This document shows, piece after piece, positions 20,905 through 48,805 of a DNA stretch of 64,000 bases (positions are counted from its first letter, which is position 1; every line of letters starts with the position of its first letter). The DNA comes from Candidatus Methanogranum gryphiswaldense (GTDB taxonomy: Archaea > Thermoplasmatota > Thermoplasmata > Methanomassiliicoccales > Methanomethylophilaceae): positions 1,361,093-1,425,092 of the forward strand of contig CP076745.1 in the NCBI GenBank assembly GCA_019262145.1, read 5' to 3'. The notes under the pieces were generated by a model, which was not told the DNA's origin, made no database searches, and saw only the letters and a program-made list of their open reading frames with translations. The position numbers were made by a program, and so were the translations under genes.

Positions 20905-21648
20905 TTAACGAAGCATTACTGCGCTTTTGACCTCTTCTTCTGTTCTCTCGGTTTTACTCATTTTAACATCGAAATCTTCCGCAGTTATAACTACGCAGTA
21001 TGTATGGTAAGAAAAATACCAACTATACTCCTTACCGTACACTTTGACCTTCAAACCGTTTTCCTTACCCCAGGCTTCTTCCCTCTTTATGTCAAGAGGG
21101 TGATACGGATGATACACAACGATGATATCTCCATTTATATTCATAAATGAAGATTTATGATCTATATTTGGAGGTATATTTTCGCCGTTGCTATTTTTTT
21201 TATACCCTTTTATTCCAGTATAGGCTAAGCCTCTCGAAAAATAAACGATATCATTATCCTCAATGAATTTACCTAGCAATTCCCTATCGAATCCTGGGTC
21301 TGAATCCCCATATAATCTGATCTTTTTTATTGAAGTCCAAAATCTAGTCGAGTCATCAATTTCTATTCTTATATGAAGGATGTCCTTATAAGAAATATTC
21401 AACATATTTACTGCATCTATCGGAATTTCTACAATCATTTGTTTTCCCCGGACTATTGGTTTAGAAGTCCACGAGCGAGAAATTTCCTCATCAAAGATTT
21501 TTTCCGTTTGAATTTCAACATACATACCATCCATCGGAGTGATCTTCATATTTCTCACTGCCTCTGATGGCAAGAATAATGCTTTTTTAGATCCAATCAC
21601 ACAGACCTTTGCAGTCCATGTCCAATATTTAACTGGTATATCGTCCAA
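20905..21648 (-). CDS. Protein with two tandem AbrB-like half-domains, unknown function
   Basis: I do not recognise this 247-aa protein as a named family. Two successive segments look like swapped-hairpin AbrB/MazE units: residues about 12-47 (GSKKALFLPSEAVRNMKI then DGMYVEIQ) and about 62-98 (GKQMIVEIPIDAVNMLNI then DILHIRIEI). Each has the G-x-Q/K, I/LP-x-EAV and D-xVEI pattern. A short WT motif precedes each repeat and occurs a third time at FWTSIKKI. The C-terminal 140 residues have no recognised domain. It may bind DNA as an intramolecular pair. The gene is AT-rich, stands alone, and sits near tRNA-Pro(GGG). Confidence 0.6.
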   Translation of the reverse strand: MDDIPVKYWTWTAKVCVIGSKKALFLPSEAVRNMKITPMDGMYVEIQTEKIFDEEISRSWTSKPIVRGKQMIVEIPIDAVNMLNISYKDILHIRIEIDDSTRFWTSIKKIRLYGDSDPGFDRELLGKFIEDNDIVYFSRGLAYTGIKGYKKNSNGENIPPNIDHKSSFMNINGDIIVVYHPYHPLDIKREEAWGKENGLKVKVYGKEYSWYFSYHTYCVVITAEDFDVKMSKTERTEEEVKSAVMLR

Positions 21649-23846: not shown

Positions 23847-24893
23847 ATGATAAGATTCGGACCCGCCGGAATACCGCTGTCCTGTAAAGGACGCACACTT
23901 AAAGACGGTGTAGAGGACGTCCATAACCTCAGCCTAACTGCACTAGAGATACAGATGGTAAGGGCGAACGCCTACAAGAGGTATCCTGAAGAAGAAGAAG
24001 TGGGCCTCACGATGAAGGATATTACGGAAGGCTTTGTCGTGGAAGTCTATAGAGATGGAGAAGCCTTAATGCCAGATGAAGAAATTGCAGACGAGGATGA
24101 ACTCGTCTTCATGCCGTCTGGAATCACAGATTTCTTTGGAGAGCTTTACGAAGTTGGCCATATGGCCAAAAGATTGGATGTTGGCCTGTCCCTACATACT
24201 CCTTATTACATGGACCTCGGTTCGAATTCAGAATTAACAAACGTATGCATGGATTCCATAAGACATGCAGGACTTATCGTTGACGCTCTTGACGGAGAGG
24301 TCGTTGTTACCAATCTGGGACTATATACTGGAAAGATACCTGATGAAGAGATAGATGCCAACATATACAGTAATGTTGCAGATCTTATGGAATGGTGGCA
24401 AGGCATGAACCTCAAACCAAAGCTCGGTGTGGAAATAACCGGACAAAGATCTGTATTTGGATCTCTTGATCAGGTTCTGGACCTATGTTCGGAAATAGAT
24501 GGGGTCGTTCCTGTTATCAATTTCCCTCACTACCATTCACGCACAGAAGGGTCACTTCTGGAAGTGGATGATTTTGCAGATATTATCAAACAAGTTGAAC
24601 CTTACTATGGTAAAGACAACATTCATACAGCATTCGCTGGTGTAGAACACGAAGGTGGCTACGAAAAAAGACTCACCCCTATCAAAAAGGGAGACCTCAA
24701 ATTCGAGCCTCTCGCTGAAGCACTCTGTGAAGTACAACCGAGTGCGACCATTATCTCAAGCTCTCCTCTACTGGAACATGATGCCATGTACATGAGGATC
24801 ATAAATGAGAGGGTCCTCAGCAAGAGAGTTGCAAAACAGATCAAAGAGAGGAAAAAGGCGGAGGCGGCTGCTACCGCATCTCCAGAGGCGTGA
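23847..24893 (+). CDS. Endonuclease IV-like TIM-barrel protein, archaeal type
   Basis: This 348-aa protein of the AP-endonuclease 2/xylose isomerase-like TIM-barrel superfamily opens with RFGPAGIPLSCKG, as Nfo-like archaeal proteins do. It has metal-site-like segments LSLHTPYYMDLGS, LGVEITGQRSVFGSLDQVLDLC, PVINFPHYHSRTEGS and HTAFAGVEHEGG. A charged C-terminal tail is rich in Lys/Glu/Ala. The family includes archaeal proteins annotated as deoxyribonuclease IV, but true repair activity is not certain. Its GTGA stop overlap couples it to hxlB. Confidence 0.82.
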   Translation: MIRFGPAGIPLSCKGRTLKDGVEDVHNLSLTALEIQMVRANAYKRYPEEEEVGLTMKDITEGFVVEVYRDGEALMPDEEIADEDELVFMPSGITDFFGELYEVGHMAKRLDVGLSLHTPYYMDLGSNSELTNVCMDSIRHAGLIVDALDGEVVVTNLGLYTGKIPDEEIDANIYSNVADLMEWWQGMNLKPKLGVEITGQRSVFGSLDQVLDLCSEIDGVVPVINFPHYHSRTEGSLLEVDDFADIIKQVEPYYGKDNIHTAFAGVEHEGGYEKRLTPIKKGDLKFEPLAEALCEVQPSATIISSSPLLEHDAMYMRIINERVLSKRVAKQIKERKKAEAAATASPEA

Positions 24894-25435
24894 TCTTGGA
24901 AGAAAACATAAGATATATCAACGACTGTTGTAAAACAGCAGTCAATTCCATATCTAGTGACAGCATCCAGGAATTGATAGATCTTATAACCAAAAAAGAA
25001 AAGATTTTCATTTACGGGTCCGGAAGATCTGGTTTGATCGGGCAGCTTTTTGCCGTTCGTCTTGTGCAATTAGGATTCAATGTCTATTTCGTAGGAGACA
25101 TGACGACGCCCATAATAGGAAAAAATGATCTTACTATTCTCATATCCAACACTGGACATACAGTATCGGTCGTACAGACAGCAGATATCGCTCGTCGTAT
25201 CGGATCTCATGTTGTATCTGTAACATCTTCCCCTTCCAGCAAACTGGCTCATATTTCTAATTCAAAGATAATCATAAACGTGCCAAAAGATTCTAAATCC
25301 CCAGAACTGGCCCCGTTGGGAACAATATTTGAGGACAGCGTACTTCTATTTTTCGATTCACTTGTACCTGAACTAATGAAAAAAATGAATGTATCAGAAG
25401 ATGAAATGCGCAAGAGACATGCGATCTGGGTATGA
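24890..25435 (+). CDS. hxlB: 6-phospho-3-hexuloisomerase (SIS domain)
   Basis: This 181-aa SIS-domain isomerase interconverts 3-hexulose-6-phosphate and fructose-6-phosphate, part of the ribulose monophosphate route that archaea use in reverse to make pentoses. Signatures: IFIYGSGRSGLIGQLFAVRLVQLGF, GDMTTPIIGKNDLTILISNTGHT, ELAPLGTIFEDSVLLFFD and the terminal RKRHAIWV. The GTG start overlaps the previous stop (GTGA); a TTG at 24896 is an alternative. The partner hxlA is not in the window. Confidence 0.92.
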   Translation: MILEENIRYINDCCKTAVNSISSDSIQELIDLITKKEKIFIYGSGRSGLIGQLFAVRLVQLGFNVYFVGDMTTPIIGKNDLTILISNTGHTVSVVQTADIARRIGSHVVSVTSSPSSKLAHISNSKIIINVPKDSKSPELAPLGTIFEDSVLLFFDSLVPELMKKMNVSEDEMRKRHAIWV

Positions 25436-25945
25436 TCATATGGATTCCATGAGCACCATCTGTGCATCATTTTGCTGACCGTCTTTACATATGAATGCCT
25501 TTATGGTCCCATCCGAGGGATCTATAACTATTGCAAACCCCGTATCCTTTCCGAATACACCCATATGCGTATTGATATCCGTCTCTGACAGATAACATCC
25601 AAATCCTGGATGAGAATGATACCATCCAACAACCATCCTACCTTGAGAACGGTCCATTCCATCAAACAGGCCTTCGAAAGAATCCCTGTTGAACCTTACT
25701 CCGACCTCATTGGAATCCAGAATTGTAGTGATTATATCCGCAACGACCGCATATTCTCCCAGATCATCACGATATACAGTACCCATCATCAGGCCCATTA
25801 CCTCTTTATCATCAAGATAACCTGTATCGGCATGATCTGCCATCATTTCCAGGATAGCCTCTGGCATGAAAAGGGTTGCACCTTTGACCTTACGAGGACG
25901 AAATTCCAGTACATTTTCTTCTGAGGACAATATCTTAGGCATCAT
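25436..25945 (-). CDS. Rpn11-like JAMM/MPN+ deubiquitinase of the Ubl operon
   Basis: This 169-aa zinc metalloprotease would cleave ubiquitin-like protein precursors or conjugates. It carries a full JAMM site: Glu in DDKEVMGLMMG (about residue 48), then WYHSHPGFGCYLSETD with the two His, Ser and Asp ligands/catalytic residues (about 109-123). The segment MVVGWYHSHPGFGC matches, from memory, the eukaryotic proteasome subunit Rpn11 almost residue for residue. I chose the ATG at 25945 (or the adjacent 25942), overlapping the end of the E2 gene by 11 bp; upstream codons do not look like JAMM protein. It is the last gene of the operon E1-Ubl-E2-JAMM, and its likely first job is removing the final Met after the Ubl Gly-Gly. 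Confidence 0.93.
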   Translation of the reverse strand: MMPKILSSEENVLEFRPRKVKGATLFMPEAILEMMADHADTGYLDDKEVMGLMMGTVYRDDLGEYAVVADIITTILDSNEVGVRFNRDSFEGLFDGMDRSQGRMVVGWYHSHPGFGCYLSETDINTHMGVFGKDTGFAIVIDPSDGTIKAFICKDGQQNDAQMVLMESI

Positions 25946-26420
25946 TATCACCAAAATTAACACTTGCATTGAATTTAGGACGATTCGTTTGATACCATTT
26001 CGCTGCAAGAATACATGACTCTGTTCCATATGGGTTCATTGGATTAGGGTCCGAAAGTAACTGTTCAACCCCTTTCACAAATGATAAAAGCGTGGATCCG
26101 AAGGACCAGTTGTCCAATGTCTTGACACATACGTGTCCTCCGTCTTCCGGGATCATTATATTCGGATGGAAGATCGGTGTAAGCCAACGTGCTCTAGGCC
26201 GCTCATATGGATATTCCTGAGATATGGACATCATGAAAGAATGATCGCTTCTCATCTCATCCTCTGATATCCTAACAGAAATGTTTGACAGGCCGATACG
26301 TATCTCGATCGGAAACTGAACATCGTCTTTAACAAATGGTATCCTCAGATTCAGATAATCATTGAGGTCGTTGATCTCGTTGTTTATCCTCCTTATTAGG
26401 ACCGGCCTTACAAGCCCCAT
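25935..26420 (-). CDS. E2 ubiquitin-conjugating enzyme homologue
   Basis: This 161-aa protein has a complete UBC fold signature. YPYERPRARWLTPIFHPN (about 70-87) contains the HPN tripeptide, followed by GGHVCVKTLDNW with the catalytic cysteine at C98 and the conserved Trp at 105. LLSFVKGVEQLLSDPNPMNP (111-130) matches the E2 helix and the PNP turn. E2 enzymes receive the activated ubiquitin-like protein from E1 as a thioester and transfer it to lysines. E2s are rare in archaea outside a few lineages. The gene starts one base after the Ubl stop and overlaps the JAMM gene, so expression is coupled. Confidence 0.94.
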   Translation of the reverse strand: MGLVRPVLIRRINNEINDLNDYLNLRIPFVKDDVQFPIEIRIGLSNISVRISEDEMRSDHSFMMSISQEYPYERPRARWLTPIFHPNIMIPEDGGHVCVKTLDNWSFGSTLLSFVKGVEQLLSDPNPMNPYGTESCILAAKWYQTNRPKFNASVNFGDNDA

Positions 26421-26421
26421 A

Positions 26422-26664
26422 TCACATTCCGCCTTCTGGATCCGGGATCATTTCGATCACGTCATCCTCGGAAATATTGATCTCATTGACGGTCTGACTT
26501 TTGTTGAGTAGCTTGGAACCTTTCCTTAGAACATATGCTCCAGCATTCTTTCCCCAATATTCTGCTGCAGTATCGATGATATCTTCAACCGATTCGTATG
26601 ATTCCAACTCCATCCTTATCGAAGAATTGTTGAGCGTGTTAACCACAGTTATCCTTACTGTCAT
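26422..26664 (-). CDS. Ubiquitin-like protein with C-terminal Gly-Gly-Met
   Basis: This 80-aa beta-grasp protein aligns with ubiquitin in order and spacing: strand VRITVVNT, strand IRMELESY, helix SVEDIIDTAAEYWG, AYVLRKGSKLLNKSQTVNEI (compare ubiquitin RLIFAGKQLEDGRTLSDY), and EDDVIEMIPDPEGG. The Gly-Gly pair is at 78-79 with one extra Met80, so a protease must trim it before E1 activation, a job for the JAMM protein of the same operon. It is not a ThiS or MoaD type by context, as no thiamine or molybdopterin genes adjoin. Its ATG overlaps the E1 stop (ATGA) and its stop is one base from the E2 ATG. Confidence 0.92.
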   Translation of the reverse strand: MTVRITVVNTLNNSSIRMELESYESVEDIIDTAAEYWGKNAGAYVLRKGSKLLNKSQTVNEINISEDDVIEMIPDPEGGM

Positions 26665-27431
26665 TTAGATCCCCCATTATCATGATTTGGACAACAGGGA
26701 TCGATAGATAACTCATATGTATCCATGCTCCCGGTCTCTCCATTATAATACATGACGTTATGGATGCACATATCCTTTCTGCCAGATAATATCTTCATCG
26801 CTTCACGCACCTGTGCAGCCGCAATTATCGATGTGGTCGTTATCTCTGATGCTGTTTTAGGTTGGAATAACATGCCATTCCCCGTGCATGAGAAACGTTG
26901 ATCCAAGATCTGCATATGGCTGCAGTTCATCATACACTCCATGCACGCGGTATCTGATAGTATCACCTGTACCTTACCCCTGAATCCATCCGTCGCTCCG
27001 TCTATATATGGCACTTTGTGATATTTTGCATGGGAATTTACATGAAGCCTTGCAGAAATATTATCTAAACATCCAAAGATTATATCATAATCCCACGATT
27101 CAAGATCTTGGACCTTGGATACCACTGACGTCAAATTTACATCTGGATTTAACTCGGCTGCTCTTTTTACAAGAATGTTGGATTTGAGGGTGCCTTGATC
27201 ATCGGTGTCTCTAAAAAATAGGCAACGACTCAAGTTAGAAACTACGATCTGATCCATATCAACAACTGTAATATTACAAAATCCTGCCAAGGCCATGCAT
27301 TTTACTACCTCATTGCCTAATGCCCCGGCTCCTACGACCAAACATTTGGCATCATGCAACCTATCCACATCTAGCCAGCTTATACGTCTCATCCTATCAT
27401 AACGATCACTGTCATATTCCCTTACCCTCAT
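26661..27431 (-). CDS. E1-like ubiquitin-activating enzyme (ThiF/MoeB/UBA fold)
   Basis: This protein of about 256 aa adenylates the C-terminus of a ubiquitin-like protein. Using numbering from the upstream TTG (27440): nucleotide loop GAGALG 37-42, DMDQIVVSNLSR 61-72 with the arginine, K86, GCLDN 123-127 and R131. Zinc-site cysteines are CMEC (166-169) and a C-terminal CCPNH (249-253). A candidate catalytic cysteine sits at FSCTGNG (C185), followed by the TASEITTTSIIAAAQVREAM helix. No rhodanese domain is fused, unlike sulfur-transfer enzymes. I prefer the ATG at 27431. It heads the operon, and the short upstream region suggests a leaderless transcript. Confidence 0.92.
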   Translation of the reverse strand: MRVREYDSDRYDRMRRISWLDVDRLHDAKCLVVGAGALGNEVVKCMALAGFCNITVVDMDQIVVSNLSRCLFFRDTDDQGTLKSNILVKRAAELNPDVNLTSVVSKVQDLESWDYDIIFGCLDNISARLHVNSHAKYHKVPYIDGATDGFRGKVQVILSDTACMECMMNCSHMQILDQRFSCTGNGMLFQPKTASEITTTSIIAAAQVREAMKILSGRKDMCIHNVMYYNGETGSMDTYELSIDPCCPNHDNGGSK

Positions 27432-27484: not shown

Positions 27485-27688
27485 GTGGCCATGGTCTCAC
27501 TTCCTGAACACGATCACTGCAAGAATTGCGGCGACCCTGTACCATTTGACATGGAATACTGCTGCATGGAATGCTACAATGAATATCAGAAGAGACAAAA
27601 AAAGGAAAAAAAGAAAGAAATGATGTTCTGGGGCATAGCCTGTCTCAGTGTAGTGGTGATAATCATTGTAGCATTACTGTTGAAGTAA
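27485..27688 (+). CDS. Small zinc-ribbon membrane protein (DUF2116-like)
   Basis: This 67-aa protein has an N-terminal treble-clef-like zinc site (HDHCKNCGDPVPFDMEYCCMECYNEY), then a lysine-rich linker and one C-terminal transmembrane helix (FWGIACLSVVVIIIVALLL). This is the layout of archaeal DUF2116. The zinc domain would face the cytoplasm. It is divergent from the E1 gene with only about 50 bp between, so the two may share regulation; functional connection is not shown. The start is GTG 27485 or ATG 27491. Its 3' end overlaps folP by 15 bp. Confidence 0.8.
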   Translation: MAMVSLPEHDHCKNCGDPVPFDMEYCCMECYNEYQKRQKKEKKKEMMFWGIACLSVVVIIIVALLLK

Positions 27689-28475: not shown

Positions 28476-30821
28476 TCACAGGTGGCTGTCTACCAATTCC
28501 ACAAGGTCTACAACCTCTACCTTCCTGTCACCTTTGGCAGATGCCAAGTTCGTCACACAGAAAGGACAGGTGGTAACGATGATATCCGCAAAGGATGCCT
28601 CATCGAGCCTAGAACCTGCAATGGCCATCGCTGTCTCTGGATAAGCGGCCCTTACTCCGCCACCTCCCCCGCAACAGTGACTTGTAGAACGGTTGTAGGC
28701 CATCTCCTTGAAATCCACCCCGGGGAATTTCTTTATTACCTCTCTCGGTGCGTCGTAGACATCGCAATGCCTTCCGAGATGACACGGATCGTGATATGTT
28801 ATCCTTCCCTTCAATGGTTTTAACTTCAGGTCCTGTTTGGCAAGGAACTCGGTCATGTGAAGGACCTCGAACGGCACATCAACATATTTTGGATATTCAT
28901 GCTTGAACATCCTGTAACACCCGGCACAGGACAGTATCAGTGTCTCTACGCCTTGTGCCTTTATGGCCTCGACGTTCTTCTGCATGAGTTTAGTTACCTC
29001 TGCCTGATCGACACCTACCCTTTGAAGAACAGACCCGCAACATACCTCATCCAATGTTGTATAGTCCACTCCTAACTTATCAAGTATCGAAATGGATGCG
29101 GCCGATGTCTTCTTCGATCTGTATGTGGCCGTACACCCGGCAAAGTAAGCATACTTAGCTTTGTGTGGCTTGCGGCCCAGCGTCTCTGCGACGGATTTCT
29201 TCTCATTGAATGGGTTACCATTAGAAAGAATACTGTCCACCATCGCCTTGTGCTTCGGAAGCATGTGGCCGTTCTTGACAAGGTCTGCACGGCATGTCTC
29301 AATAATATCCACGATGTTTACCTTGGAAGGACATCTTCTGACACAATCCGCACATGTTGTACATGTGTACATGTTCTCAACAACGGAATCATCGGCTTGT
29401 ATGTCTCCGTGCAGAAGACCATATGTGAGCACGATACGTCCTCTCGATAGTGCTGAATCCCATCCGATCGCTTTGAATGACGGGCACACGCTCTTGCAGA
29501 ATCCACACATCGTACATGTGTTGAGTGCGTTGGAAACCTCTTTGATCTTATCTGCTTTGAAATCCTTCATATGCTCTACCTTGGGTATTGTAACACTTCC
29601 GTCCATGAGTATTATGAATGTCGCATTCTTTTTCCATTTGAGTGCGGCCTTTACCGCTTCGTCAACAGATGAAAAAGGCGTAATATTTGCCGATCTTATT
29701 ATCTCTGGATCTAGGTCGGTGACCGCCCAGATATCAGCCCATGTAGCGATCTCCGCCATCTTTGCCGCTTTGTGATATCCTAGTTTGTATTCTGTATCAA
29801 GATTGTTCAATACATGTTTCGGATCCTTCGATGTGGACAATTGCTTCAGGAATGTAGAATGACCTATACCTTCCCTGCACTTTGACACCATTATGATCTT
29901 GCCGCCCTCTTTGAGAGCCCATTTTCCATTATCCAATGCCTTTTGTGACTGGTAAAGATCTACATCCATTGGATATGGTGCAACCGAAATGACAACATCC
30001 GCCTTTTCTGGAATGGGTACGCAGAACACATCTTGGGCCCACTCAACGGCCTGATCGAATGCGGGGTTTAAATCTCCGGATGCGACCTTGTAAATGTGCT
30101 GATGTCTATCCAACACCATCTGGATCGAGAATATTGCCTTCCCCTTGATCACTTCGAGTGCATCCATCATATCTTCGTGAACGGGATTGCCTTTAAGAAC
30201 CAATGATTGTGCCGACTTATTCATAGCAAGCTTATGATTCGCCTCGATGGTCTCATAAGAAGCGACTCCTGGAAGGAAAGATTTCCTTCCACCGGTGAAT
30301 CCTGCGAAGTAATGAGGTTCAACACTGGTTATTATGACCAGACGGTCAGCCTCGACCGCGATCTTATTGACGTTCATGGGAGTGCCGTTCTTTGACTGCC
30401 CCAGATATATGCACTCGGATTTCTTTGCGTCATGCGCTATTATACGGTCCTTGAGCTCTGGATACAAAGACCCAAAAACGAAGTCGTACTCCTCTTCGGT
30501 CATGTCTCTGTGAGTTCCCGTGGCCACGAGATATCTGGCCTTTTTGAGGTCCATCCTCTTGGAAAGTGCCTGAAGCACCTTTGCTGTAGGCGTAGGACGG
30601 GTCCCATCGTTGACGATGAACACAATATCCTTTCCGCCCTCGAGAAAACTCGTAAGTGAATCGTATCCAATAGGACTATCGATAGATCTGTTGATCACAT
30701 CATCAGCATTACCGCACTTGACATCCTTGGGATAGAATGTACCGATATAGGCTTCATCGGGAATCTCTGTCCTTTGAACACAATCCTTTCCGTATTTCAC
30801 GTCTACAATCATTGAGACCAA
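28476..30821 (-). CDS. LarA-type nickel racemase fused to HdrD/GlpC-like Fe-S oxidoreductase
   Basis: One 781-aa protein has two modules. Residues 1 to about 420 are LarA-like (DUF2088): NDGTRPTP (71-78), ATGTHR with His104, EPHYFAGFTGGRKSFLPG with Lys180, and His196 in EANHK. These match the residues that hold the nickel-pincer cofactor in lactate racemase. Residues about 430-781 contain two 4Fe-4S motifs (C436/439/442/446 and C487/490/493/497) and two CCG domains (C563, C594-595, C632/635; C680, C716-717, C752/755), as in HdrD, GlpC and LutA. The fusion suggests racemisation or dehydrogenation of a hydroxy acid joined to electron transfer. No larBCE genes are here. It is divergent from thiL. 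Confidence 0.9.
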   Translation of the reverse strand: MVSMIVDVKYGKDCVQRTEIPDEAYIGTFYPKDVKCGNADDVINRSIDSPIGYDSLTSFLEGGKDIVFIVNDGTRPTPTAKVLQALSKRMDLKKARYLVATGTHRDMTEEEYDFVFGSLYPELKDRIIAHDAKKSECIYLGQSKNGTPMNVNKIAVEADRLVIITSVEPHYFAGFTGGRKSFLPGVASYETIEANHKLAMNKSAQSLVLKGNPVHEDMMDALEVIKGKAIFSIQMVLDRHQHIYKVASGDLNPAFDQAVEWAQDVFCVPIPEKADVVISVAPYPMDVDLYQSQKALDNGKWALKEGGKIIMVSKCREGIGHSTFLKQLSTSKDPKHVLNNLDTEYKLGYHKAAKMAEIATWADIWAVTDLDPEIIRSANITPFSSVDEAVKAALKWKKNATFIILMDGSVTIPKVEHMKDFKADKIKEVSNALNTCTMCGFCKSVCPSFKAIGWDSALSRGRIVLTYGLLHGDIQADDSVVENMYTCTTCADCVRRCPSKVNIVDIIETCRADLVKNGHMLPKHKAMVDSILSNGNPFNEKKSVAETLGRKPHKAKYAYFAGCTATYRSKKTSAASISILDKLGVDYTTLDEVCCGSVLQRVGVDQAEVTKLMQKNVEAIKAQGVETLILSCAGCYRMFKHEYPKYVDVPFEVLHMTEFLAKQDLKLKPLKGRITYHDPCHLGRHCDVYDAPREVIKKFPGVDFKEMAYNRSTSHCCGGGGGVRAAYPETAMAIAGSRLDEASFADIIVTTCPFCVTNLASAKGDRKVEVVDLVELVDSHL

Positions 30822-45264: not shown

Positions 45265-46932
45265 ATGAAAGGATCTAGAGCACTGCTGAAAATGCTGGAG
45301 GACAGAGATGTAGAATACGTCTTCGGATATCCCGGAGCCACCGTCATTCCTATCTATGACGAGATCATAGATTCGTCCGTAAGGCATGTACTCGTCAGAC
45401 ACGAGCAGTGCGCCGCGCACATGGCAGATGCCTATGCCAGGGCCTGTGGGATACCTGGTGTCTGTCTATCCACCAGCGGTCCTGGTGTCACCAACCTTAT
45501 AACCGGTGTCGCCACCGCATATGCAGATTCGTCGCCTATCATAGCCTTGACCGGACAGGTCGGAACTGGATCGCTGGGACTCGGTGCCTTCCAAGAGATA
45601 GATGCATACAGTCTGATGATGCCAGTCACAAAACATAACTATCGTGTTCTGAGCCCAGAGAAGCTACCGCATATACTCGCAGAAGCCTGGGACATATGCC
45701 AGACAGGCAGACCTGGACCTGTCCACATAGATCTTCCCGTCGATCAGCTTAATGCTGAGCTGGATGAGAGATTGCTTACCGAGGAATATGGCATCAAACC
45801 CATAAGGACGGATGTCTCTGAATTGGGTCAGGCCGTCAAATGGATCCGTGAAGCGAGACAACCGGTCATGATGGTCGGGGGCGGTGCCATAACCGGAAAT
45901 GCCAGTAAAGAGGTCATAAGACTTGCTGAATTGACGAATATACCTGTTGTCACACCGATGATGGGGATAGGCATCATTCCATGGGACCATCCGCTTAACA
46001 TGGGGCCGCTGGGAATGCATGGCAGGATGCCGGCGCTCGATGCATTCAGCCATGCGGACCTGATCATCGCCATAGGGACAAGATTCTCTGACAGGACATA
46101 CAGTCCACACACGGCCCCAGGTGAAAAATGCAGGGTCATCCACATCGATATAGATGCCACCGAGTTCGGCAAGCACAACCGTGAGTCCGTCAACCTTCTA
46201 TGCGATGCAAAGAAAGGGACACAGTTGCTTATCGACGCATTGAGCGGATACTCGGACCAACACACGACCTGGGACAGGACCGTGGAAGAATACAGGAAGC
46301 GCTGCTGCTGCAATTGCAACCTCGACGCTGATCCCATAAATCCGAGAAGGGTCATGTACGAGATAAACAAGCTCATCGACGACGATATGATCATAACAAC
46401 GGATGTCGGACAGAACCAGATGTGGGCGATGCATCATCTCCACATAAAGAACCCAAGACAGTTCATTTCTTCTGGAAGCATGGGCACAATGGGATTCGGA
46501 CTTCCTTCCGCACTCGGAGCGAAGGCCGCAAAACCGGAAAAGAATGTCATGACGATAGTCGGGGACGGAGGACTCCAGATGGTCATACAGGAACTTGCCA
46601 CATCGGTCGCAGAGGATTTCCCCGTCGTCATATGCCTGTTGAACAACGGATGGTTGGGGATGGTCAGACAGCATCAGAAATTCTTCTGGAACAAACGCTA
46701 CAGCGGTGTCGAACTTGATGCAGACCCAGACTTCTGTATGATAGCGAAGGCGTACGGTGCCAAAGGCATACGCGTCGAAAAACCGGGAGAGATCGGCGAT
46801 GCCCTTAAAGAGGCATTGGACTGCGGAAAGACATGTCTTGTCGATATACCTACGGACTGTGAGGCCGATATAACCCCGATGATCCCTGGAAACAGATCGG
46901 CCAACATCATCAAGGGTGACTGCTCTTACTAA
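45265..46932 (+). CDS. ilvB: Acetolactate synthase large subunit-like, copy 1
   Basis: This 555-aa thiamine-diphosphate enzyme makes acetolactate or acetohydroxybutyrate from pyruvate. The activating glutamate is in VRHEQCAAHMADAYARA, the FAD/CoA-fold middle domain has MVGGGAITGNA and PMMGIGIIPWDHP, and the ThDP motif is GDGGLQMVIQELATS ... LLNNGWLGMVRQ. An identical domain order is in the next gene. No small regulatory subunit (ilvN/ilvH) is adjacent. A strong hairpin follows its stop. Confidence 0.93.
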   Translation: MKGSRALLKMLEDRDVEYVFGYPGATVIPIYDEIIDSSVRHVLVRHEQCAAHMADAYARACGIPGVCLSTSGPGVTNLITGVATAYADSSPIIALTGQVGTGSLGLGAFQEIDAYSLMMPVTKHNYRVLSPEKLPHILAEAWDICQTGRPGPVHIDLPVDQLNAELDERLLTEEYGIKPIRTDVSELGQAVKWIREARQPVMMVGGGAITGNASKEVIRLAELTNIPVVTPMMGIGIIPWDHPLNMGPLGMHGRMPALDAFSHADLIIAIGTRFSDRTYSPHTAPGEKCRVIHIDIDATEFGKHNRESVNLLCDAKKGTQLLIDALSGYSDQHTTWDRTVEEYRKRCCCNCNLDADPINPRRVMYEINKLIDDDMIITTDVGQNQMWAMHHLHIKNPRQFISSGSMGTMGFGLPSALGAKAAKPEKNVMTIVGDGGLQMVIQELATSVAEDFPVVICLLNNGWLGMVRQHQKFFWNKRYSGVELDADPDFCMIAKAYGAKGIRVEKPGEIGDALKEALDCGKTCLVDIPTDCEADITPMIPGNRSANIIKGDCSY

Positions 46933-46942
46933 ATCACTTAAC

Positions 46943-46980
46943 GGGACGGTCGATGACCGTCCCATTTACCTTTTTCTTCT
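46943..46980 (+). terminator. Hairpin and T tract between the two ilvB copies
   Basis: GGGACGGTC (46943-46951) pairs perfectly with GACCGTCCC (46955-46963) around a GAT loop, and a T-rich stretch (46964-46980) follows. It looks like an intrinsic terminator after copy 1; an attenuator role before copy 2 is possible. Confidence 0.6.
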
Positions 46981-47029
46981 GTAATACTTTTAATGGATGA
47001 CGTTAATCCGGTCTCAGAAGGTTCATTGT

Positions 47030-48700
47030 ATGAAAGGATCAAGAGCACTGCTAAAAACGCTCGAGGACAGGAACGTCGAAACCATGTTCGGCTACCCGGG
47101 AGGAGTAGTCATCCCGATATACGACGAGATACTCGACTCCTCGATCAGGCACGTGCTTGTAAGGCACGAGCAGTGCGCCGCACACATGGCGGATGCCTAT
47201 GCCAGGGCCTGCGGGATACCGGGTGTTTGCCTCGCCACCAGCGGTCCGGGGGCGACCAATCTCACAACTGGTATCGCCACCGCATATGCAGACTCCTCCC
47301 CGATGCTCGCCATAACAGGACAGGTGGGAACTGGCTCCCTCGGCCTTGGTGCCTTCCAAGAGGTCGATGCGTACAGCCTGATGATGCCTATCACAAAACA
47401 CAACTTCCGTGTTCTGGACATCGACAAGATGCCGAACACCATAGCCGAAGCTTGGCAGATCTGCCAGACAGGCAGACCTGGACCCGTCCACATAGACATA
47501 CCAGTGGATCAGGTCAATTCACAGATAGATGAGAGACTCATAAACGAGGCCGAACACAGCATCAAACCTCTAGCGACCGATATATCTGGACTCCAGGAAG
47601 CAGCAGATTGGATAAGAATGGCCAACCGGCCTGTGCTCATGATCGGAGGAGGAGTGATAACTGGTAACGCCTGTGCAGAGGTCCAGAAATTGGCAGAGAT
47701 GACCAACACCCCCATCGTGACACCGATGATGGGAATAGGTGCTGTCCCTTCAAAACATCCCCTCAACATGGGACCCCTGGGTATGCATGGAAGGCTCAGC
47801 GCTCTCGAGGTCTTCAAGAATTCCGATCTCATAATCGCGATCGGCACCAAGTTCTCGGATAGGACATTCAGCGCTCATACGGATCCGGCAAGTTGCAAGG
47901 TCATACACATAGACATAGACGCGACCGAATTCAGCAAACATATCAACCATCCGTCCATCAATCTGCTTTGCGATGCAAAAATAGGAACACAGATGCTCAT
48001 AGAAGCACTCGGTGGGTATACTGATAACCATGCTCAGTGGAACGCGAAGATCAGAGAGGCGAAGAAAAGATGTCCCTGTGATTTTGACTACGGATGCTCC
48101 CCTATTGTGCCCCAGAAGGTCATGCATGAACTCAACAAATTCCTGGACAAGGACATCATAGTTACTACCGACGTCGGACAGAACCAGATGTGGGCGATGC
48201 ACTACCTTGACATAAGACGCCCGAGACAATTCATATCCTCAGGAAGTTTCGGAACGATGGGATTCGGATTGCCCTCGGCCATAGGTGCCAAGGCCGCAAA
48301 GCCCGAATCCAAGGTGGTCACCGTTACCGGAGATGGTGGACTTCTGATGGTCATACAGGAACTGGCCACATCTGTCGCCGAGGACCTGCCTGTCGTCATC
48401 TGCCTACTGAACAACGGATGGCTCGGAATGGTCAAGCAGTGGCAGAATCTGTTCTGGAATTCAAGATACAGCGAAACCAAGCTTGATGCCGACCCAGACT
48501 TCGTAAAGGTCGCCGAGGCATTTGGAGCCAGAGGCATACGTGTAGAAAGGCCAGGCGAGATCGCCGATGCGTTCAAACAGGCATTCGAATGTGACAGGAC
48601 ATGTCTCGTCGAGATCAAGATCGATCCCGAAGAGAATATAACTCCGATGCTGCCGCCGAATTCCCAGCTCCCAATAATCAAAGGCCGCTGCAGATTCTGA
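47030..48700 (+). CDS. ilvB: Acetolactate synthase large subunit-like, copy 2
   Basis: This 556-aa paralogue of copy 1 has the same motifs: KGSRALLKTLEDR, VRHEQCAAHMADAYARA, MIGGGVITGNA, GDGGLLMVIQELATS and LLNNGWLGMVKQ. The two proteins are very similar along the whole length, roughly two thirds identical by eye. ATG 47030 gives the same N-terminus as copy 1; upstream in-frame codons are not conserved. It is followed by ilvC, so this copy is the more likely biosynthetic enzyme. Confidence 0.92.
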   Translation: MKGSRALLKTLEDRNVETMFGYPGGVVIPIYDEILDSSIRHVLVRHEQCAAHMADAYARACGIPGVCLATSGPGATNLTTGIATAYADSSPMLAITGQVGTGSLGLGAFQEVDAYSLMMPITKHNFRVLDIDKMPNTIAEAWQICQTGRPGPVHIDIPVDQVNSQIDERLINEAEHSIKPLATDISGLQEAADWIRMANRPVLMIGGGVITGNACAEVQKLAEMTNTPIVTPMMGIGAVPSKHPLNMGPLGMHGRLSALEVFKNSDLIIAIGTKFSDRTFSAHTDPASCKVIHIDIDATEFSKHINHPSINLLCDAKIGTQMLIEALGGYTDNHAQWNAKIREAKKRCPCDFDYGCSPIVPQKVMHELNKFLDKDIIVTTDVGQNQMWAMHYLDIRRPRQFISSGSFGTMGFGLPSAIGAKAAKPESKVVTVTGDGGLLMVIQELATSVAEDLPVVICLLNNGWLGMVKQWQNLFWNSRYSETKLDADPDFVKVAEAFGARGIRVERPGEIADAFKQAFECDRTCLVEIKIDPEENITPMLPPNSQLPIIKGRCRF

Positions 48701-48805
48701 CCGAACTACGGTAAATGACTCTTGGTTTCAGTGTAAGCAAGGCCTTGTACATGCGATATATTTTAGTGTGATAAGGAGTTGGGTCTACCAACACTAGGTG
48801 TAATT

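Follow-up and report, generated by a model that had tools for sequence, protein, structure and literature searches.

The ubiquitin-like cascade of Caldarchaeum subterraneum has been reconstituted (Hennell James et al. 2017, PMC5654768) and consists of a ubiquitin homolog with a tail after its di-glycine motif, an E1, an E2, a RING protein and the MPN+ JAMM protease CsRpn11, which acts in trimming and deconjugation (PMC5654768, PMC6043591). According to the main text of Fuchs et al. (2018, PMC6043591), the prokaryotic proteins designated JAMM-3 are encoded in Ub-E1-E2 operons, are closer to Rpn11 and Csn5 than JAMM-1 and JAMM-2 are, and show poor links to AMSH and BRCC36. An Rpn11 relative of Methanomassiliicoccus luminyensis, WP_019177758, was described by Fort et al. 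(2015, PMC4453063) and belongs to the same archaeal order as the protein analysed here, so that an Rpn11-like JAMM protein of the Methanomassiliicoccales has been known since 2015. An E3 enzyme is named neither for the JAMM-3 proteins nor for WP_019177758 in the main texts of these two reports (PMC6043591, PMC4453063). The Haloferax desampylase HvJAMM1 and SAMP likewise represent an archaeal protein of the JAMM fold and a GG-ended modifier, but SAMP systems include neither an E2 nor a RING protein. Comparable sets of Ubl, E1, E2 and JAB genes occur in the bacterial BilABCD and CBASS Cap2/Cap3 systems, which are defence systems of patchy distribution.

The window considered here is the whole analysed stretch of 64,000 nucleotides from Candidatus Methanogranum gryphiswaldense, the genome of which is represented by one contig of 1.52 Mb and is 99.9% complete. 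An intact gene for a JAMM/MPN+ metalloprotease of 169 amino acids (P0001) is located at positions 25945..25436 on the minus strand, with the reading frame remaining open upstream to position 26029. The deduced protein matched the Pfam family JAB (7.2e-14), and its closest solved chains were Rpn11 (1e-15), Csn5 (1e-12), CsRpn11 (8e-8) and AMSH (2e-5); the JAB match together with the Rpn11 chains places the JAMM assignment far above chance. The residues E48, H110, H112, S120 and D123, representing the JAMM ligands and the catalytic residue, are all present and are invariant in 17 relatives. The protein thus shows the upstream glutamate and the HxHx(7)SxxD pattern on an MPN fold that characterize the JAMM/MPN+ superfamily, and a Foldseek search with its AlphaFold model (pLDDT 86) yielded the Rpn11 chain 5u4p_B as best match (E 2e-11).

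Directly upstream, with overlaps or gaps of 1-11 bases, the minus strand encodes an E1-like adenylating enzyme (27431..26661), a ubiquitin-like modifier (26664..26422) and an E2 ubiquitin-conjugating-like enzyme (26420..25935). Both the JAMM gene and these three neighbours had been proposed in the first-pass annotation and were confirmed; the four genes are packed as in a translationally coupled operon, with the JAMM gene in last position. The E1-like protein comprises 256 amino acids and is restricted to the ThiF/MoeB-fold core (Pfam ThiF, 1.5e-44), scoring better against ThiF/MoeB models than against Ube1, whereas the E1 of Caldarchaeum subterraneum has about 400 amino acids compared with about 256 in the window system. 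A candidate thioester cysteine, invariant throughout the order, resides in the motif [FYHN][STN]C[TS]G. The Ubl protein of 80 amino acids ends in IPDPEGG-M, one residue past the di-glycine. Its family profile matched ubiquitin chains among the solved structures, while the Pfam ubiquitin match (1.4e-4) remained under the cut-off. The PDPEGG end, which has no Lys or Arg close by, is invariant in the Ubl alignment, with PDPQGG in one degenerate case, and it is followed by nothing at 27 loci and by 1-15 residues at the others. The E2-like protein of 161 amino acids contains the HPN motif, the catalytic cysteine and the WS loop; it matched Pfam UQ_con (4.9e-15), its best solved relatives are E2s of the RAD6/UBE2B type (E 2e-10), and the FHPNI...GGHVC region with the HPN motif and catalytic cysteine expected of an E2 is conserved in the family.

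The JAMM gene is present in 47 of 61 genomes of the Methanomassiliicoccales, and the order and direction of the E1-Ubl-E2-JAMM genes are kept in the relatives from this order that were examined, wherever the contig reaches. In these relatives the JAMM gene is also adjoined by the convergent plus-strand gene for a SIS-domain 6-phospho-3-hexuloisomerase (HxlB, 24890..25435; NCBIfam RuMP_HxlB above cut-off). Together with the similarly syntenic plus-strand gene for an AP-endonuclease-2-like TIM-barrel protein (23847..24893; Pfam), it serves as a marker of the region and stands outside the Ubl system. The possibility that the E3 is a DUF2116 zinc protein encoded at 27485-27688 was rejected, as this protein has a single treble clef, a divergent orientation and no RING pattern. 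Elsewhere in the window, a 781-aa frame on the minus strand (28476-30821) fuses the N and C domains of the lactate racemase LarA to a 4Fe-4S/two-CCG oxidoreductase subunit, and a 247-aa frame (20905-21648, minus strand) gave no Pfam match. Two tandem paralogous acetolactate synthase-like genes (45265-48700, plus strand) are followed at 48779 by an ilvC-like gene, named from reading of its sequence.

The gene content and order, the catalytic residues, the family placement and the co-distribution, linkage and fusion of a RING gene are observed features of these genomes; the biochemical steps, the E3 activity of the RING protein and the connection to proteasomal degradation are what we infer. The JAMM protein probably serves as the specific protease for both processing and deconjugation in a housekeeping Ubl system that includes a RING E3 and was inherited in the Methanomassiliicoccales and other Thermoplasmatota. 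In the proposed cycle, the E1 would adenylate the C-terminal GG of the Ubl and load it onto its cysteine, and the E2 would take the modifier over as a thioester. The RING protein, whose gene precedes pop5 and the proteasome alpha gene, would then promote transfer of the Ubl to lysines of target proteins, and the JAMM protein would trim residues past the GG where these are present and remove the Ubl from its targets.

The operon itself encodes no E3, and a zf-RING_2 search of the genome yielded one candidate, beside the proteasome alpha gene (psmA). This gene lies outside the window operon and is followed on its own strand by pop5 and psmA; pop5 was identified by sequence reading, with no match in NCBIfam. 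The deduced protein of 172 amino acids comprises an N-terminal helix, a C-x2-C-x11-C-x-C-x4-H-x2-C-x6-C-x2-C finger and two zinc ribbons. Among 20 homologues, the zinc ligands C61, C64, C76, H83, C86, C93 and C96 of the first half do not vary and C78 hardly does, and the ligands of the zinc ribbons are likewise invariant. Matches of the RING proteins to zf-RING_2 and Prok-RING_1 ranged from 1e-6 to 6e-3 and were mostly under the Pfam cut-offs, with one genome above. The nearest PDB folds of the modelled protein were mostly RING E3 ligases, at weak E-values of 0.006 at best.

The assignment of this protein to the Ubl system follows from its co-distribution with the E2, the gene linkage and a fusion to JAMM. 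Presence of E2 and RING genes agreed in 34/34 genomes of the order (25 with both, 9 with neither), G032 and G035 being counted as RING-less as only the zinc-ribbon part was matched. The RING-less genomes retain psmA and, ahead of it, pop5. When mapped on a psmA tree, joint losses of E2 and RING were found in 4/4 cases on supported branches and in 6/6 on the best tree, with none discordant, although four well-supported pairs are too few for a sign test to reach 0.05. The gene order RING-pop5-psmA occurs throughout the own family and in G058. Outside the order, eight of ten genomes with an E2 gave a RING match. In other families of the phylum, two genomes (G065 and G076) encode, directly upstream of Ubl-E2-JAMM, a protein of at least 1376 amino acids that has the RING as its C-terminal domain, and in G133 a single frame of 1703 amino acids combines beta-helix repeats with a RING at residues 1435-1472 and, at 1560-1660, a full JAB domain. 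These data suggest that the RING candidate is the probable missing E3 part of the Ubl kit. RING domains of the same family were also seen at the C-terminus of very large proteins in other Thermoplasmatota families (L273:1-4167, L274:1-4128, L275:514-4470, L213 and L219), several of which carry repeats characteristic of surface proteins, of the beta-helix, Ig-like or PKD kind.

Moreover, the genome encodes the 20S alpha and beta subunits and PAN (TIGR01242, above cut-off), which makes a proteasomal use of the Ubl system possible, as is also suggested by the RING-psmA neighbourhood. The system resembles that of Caldarchaeum subterraneum in its tailed Ubl, E1, E2, candidate RING and MPN+ JAMM components. 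It differs in that CsRpn11 belongs to a separate JAMM clade and is divergently transcribed, whereas the window JAMM is the last gene of the operon, and in that the RING protein of the window genome is putatively membrane-anchored, bears zinc ribbons and is encoded at psmA, unlike its Caldarchaeum counterpart. Beyond the reports on JAMM-3 and WP_019177758, the present data add the conservation of the operon across the order, a RING partner, its fusion to JAMM, the nature of the Ubl end and a set of inactive JAMM proteins. Literature searches on Ubl or E2 proteins of this order yielded Fort et al. (2015) and general papers only. In open-access main texts neither the RING partner nor its fusion to JAMM nor the inactive JAMM proteins were found to be described, and the RING protein, encoded away from the operon, appears to be new.

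The inactive JAMM proteins are encoded in two genomes of one genus, G013 and G023 (L276:2326-2778 and L277:2717-3145), and lack E48, H110, H112 and S120. The E1, Ubl, E2 and RING genes persist in both genomes, and the Ubl stops exactly at the GG; a third genome of this genus (G032) has lost the E2, JAMM and RING genes. The E2 gene of G023 was considered as disrupted, a reading that was dropped since the frame merely ends earlier, past the catalytic core. This constellation fits the view that the trimming role of JAMM may be dispensable only when the Ubl has no tail, and it shows that conjugation genes can outlast deconjugation. As the Ubl of the window extends one residue past the GG, processing would be needed there, while the many tail-less Ubls found alongside an active JAMM point to deconjugation as the more general role. 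An in-frame fusion of Ubl to E2 (...VPRPVGG|AMLPQDK...) was observed in Calditenuis fumarioli (L108:4142-4960, plus strand). A JAMM-3-like gene follows shortly downstream, so its product may be needed to split the Ubl from the E2. A Prok-RING_1-like gene is located nearby, at 1791-2090 of L108.

The first-pass annotation had regarded the JAMM protein as almost identical to eukaryotic Rpn11 around the active site and as bearing on the origin of the proteasome lid enzyme, a reading in which the Thermoplasmatota JAMM would be sister or direct progenitor of Rpn11/Csn5 and the operon a relic of the lid lineage. The near-identity holds in the active-site stretch MVVGWYHSHPGFGCYLSETDINTH (25636..25565, minus strand; JAMM residues 104-127), in which 20/24 residues match human Rpn11, the highest value among the non-Rpn11 sequences compared, but not in the rest of the protein, where identity falls to 24/101 (24%). 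One detail of the earlier comparison was corrected, as human Rpn11 reads SGVD and the SSVD given for the eukaryotic protein is that of yeast; the human Rpn11, CSN5, AMSH (JAMM domain) and BRCC36 references were verified letter by letter against PDB chains. Outside the stretch, Caldarchaeum, Asgard and cyanobacterial groups reach mean identities of 26-28% to human Rpn11, the window JAMM being no higher, and two of its own relatives exceed it (L028, 35/102; L030, 31/102). Against yeast Rpn11 the protein scored 60.8 bits, but only 11.7 bits once the 24 residues were masked, whereas the scores against other Thermoplasmata remained at 47-59 bits. A special closeness to Rpn11 was thus not borne out. 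Additionally, the turn in this stretch varies among Methanomassiliicoccales JAMM proteins (PGFGC, LGIGC, PGHGC, PSYHC), and PGFGC recurs in Asgard Jordarchaeia and Freyarchaeia, so that the exact match to Rpn11 is in part a coincidence on a constrained site. An Rpn11-like active site alone is accordingly no mark of eukaryotic ancestry. The window JAMM shares with Rpn11/PSMD14 and Csn5 the MPN+ core, the catalytic residues and the GC[FYW][LM]S turn, but it has 169 amino acids compared with 310 in Rpn11 and ends shortly past the MPN core, without the C-terminal region for lid assembly. It also differs in having no MPN- partner, since no Rpn8-like dimer partner was detected and the complete genome encodes a single PF01398 protein.

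When 84,980 species genomes were scanned and the matches ranked by their similarity to yeast Rpn11, Asgard archaea, Caldarchaeales and Methanomassiliicoccales were retrieved, along with other Thermoplasmata and a small number of cyanobacterial loci. Two maximum-likelihood trees were calculated, the second leaving out AMSH, BRCC36 and some JAMM-1 rows because these long branches joined each other. In both trees the window JAMM fell inside a Thermoplasmata clade (support 100/99, and 96/99 in the second tree) that joins the Calditenuaceae 'type 2' and Okeania/Trichodesmium JAMM proteins (97/87; 91/88). CsRpn11 and several Asgard groups formed a separate clade (94/86 versus 97/87; second tree 97/83 versus 91/88), and Rpn11/Csn5 a third (89/81; 95/85). 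Bacterial and SAMP-type (JAMM-1) proteins were remote from the window JAMM (split 100/98), as the earlier annotation had anticipated, and a recent transfer from a eukaryote is excluded because the JAMM gene, the whole operon and its neighbours are conserved across the order. A second, short SAMP-type JAB protein with an intact HSHP...S..D motif is encoded in the same genome (G000:C1:1435860-1436138, L172), 11 kb past the end of the window. The window JAMM itself reached 32 of the required 130 bits with the NCBIfam desampylase model, which sets it apart from JAMM-1. In phmmer comparisons it scored 61 bits against Rpn11, 54 against Csn5 and at most 24 against AMSH/BRCC36; these values and its Ub-E1-E2 operon agree with JAMM-3 as described in the main text of PMC6043591, the comparison being with that published description. 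The window JAMM is accordingly assigned, by its sequence, to a third, 'JAMM-3'-like clade of archaeal MPN+ proteins that is not demonstrably the stem of Rpn11. Two systems, one with a CsRpn11-type and one with a window-type JAMM, were observed in one Calditenuis MAG (L069, L108). The Okeania and Trichodesmium loci (L089, L116, L118, L115) encode E2 and JAMM, those of Okeania also an E1, and an old inter-domain transfer is possible for these cyanobacterial JAMM proteins branching with the Thermoplasmatota clade.

A sister relationship of the window JAMM to Rpn11/Csn5 was recovered in neither tree. AU tests nevertheless retained a clade of Thermoplasmata and Rpn11/Csn5 (p 0.14, 12.8 log-likelihood units worse) and one of the JAMM-3-like proteins as a whole with Rpn11/Csn5 (p 0.145, only 2.8 units worse), barely kept Thermoplasmata with Rpn11 alone (p 0.052) and rejected CsRpn11 with Rpn11/Csn5 (p 0.026). 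The preference of the window JAMM for solved Rpn11 and then Csn5 chains before CsRpn11 and the shared GC[FYW][LM]S turn speak in the same direction, but human Rpn11 itself prefers CsRpn11 (78.6 bits) to P0001 (57.8 bits), the likeness lies almost wholly within the catalytic stretch, and the PGFGC turn is shared with the Asgard groups. About 150 alignment columns are too few to decide where the lid enzyme came from, and we regard a sister-group or progenitor position of the Thermoplasmatota JAMM as unlikely.

An anti-phage defence function of the Bil or CBASS Cap2-Cap3 kind would involve the same Ubl, E1, E2 and JAB components, and weak matches to the defence E1-E2 and JAB models of PADLOC were obtained. 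It is nonetheless very improbable: profile similarity to BilABCD and Cap2/Cap3 was weak, the Ubl system received no specific name in searches with PADLOC, NCBIfam and PHROGs and no defence model names it, the surroundings are of housekeeping type with synteny kept across the order and not a patchy mobile island, and a RING gene beside psmA fits proteostasis better. A sulfur-carrier or cofactor system of the MoaD/ThiS/SAMP type, with a MoeB-like E1 and JAMM-1 and no more than a likeness to ubiquitination, would account for the best E1 scores against ThiF/MoeB models and a weak archaeal MoaD match of the Ubl but is very improbable, given that sulfur transfer has no role for a canonical E2 or a RING, that the Ubl profile retrieves ubiquitin and not MoaD among solved chains, that the genome has a separate SAMP-type JAB, and that the window JAMM is far from JAMM-1 in the tree.

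Studies of archaeal ubiquitin systems have dealt with uncultured Caldarchaeum and Asgard lineages. The order Methanomassiliicoccales has cultured members, and thus an archaeal E1-E2-RING-JAMM cycle, along with a possible connection to the proteasome, would be open to testing in living cells. A wider reading of the housekeeping Ubl system is advanced here tentatively and remains doubtful: the Thermoplasmatota might possess a complete Ubl system of their own, apart from those of Caldarchaeum and Asgard archaea, in which the psmA-linked, membrane-anchored RING sends tagged proteins to PAN-20S, and the JAMM of one genus, if it became an MPN- protein devoid of activity with conjugation continuing, might parallel in nature the way in which Rpn8-like subunits arose. 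The inactivation of JAMM, the RING-JAMM fusion and the Ubl-E2 fusion represent natural cases in which the assembly and loss of such systems can be studied.
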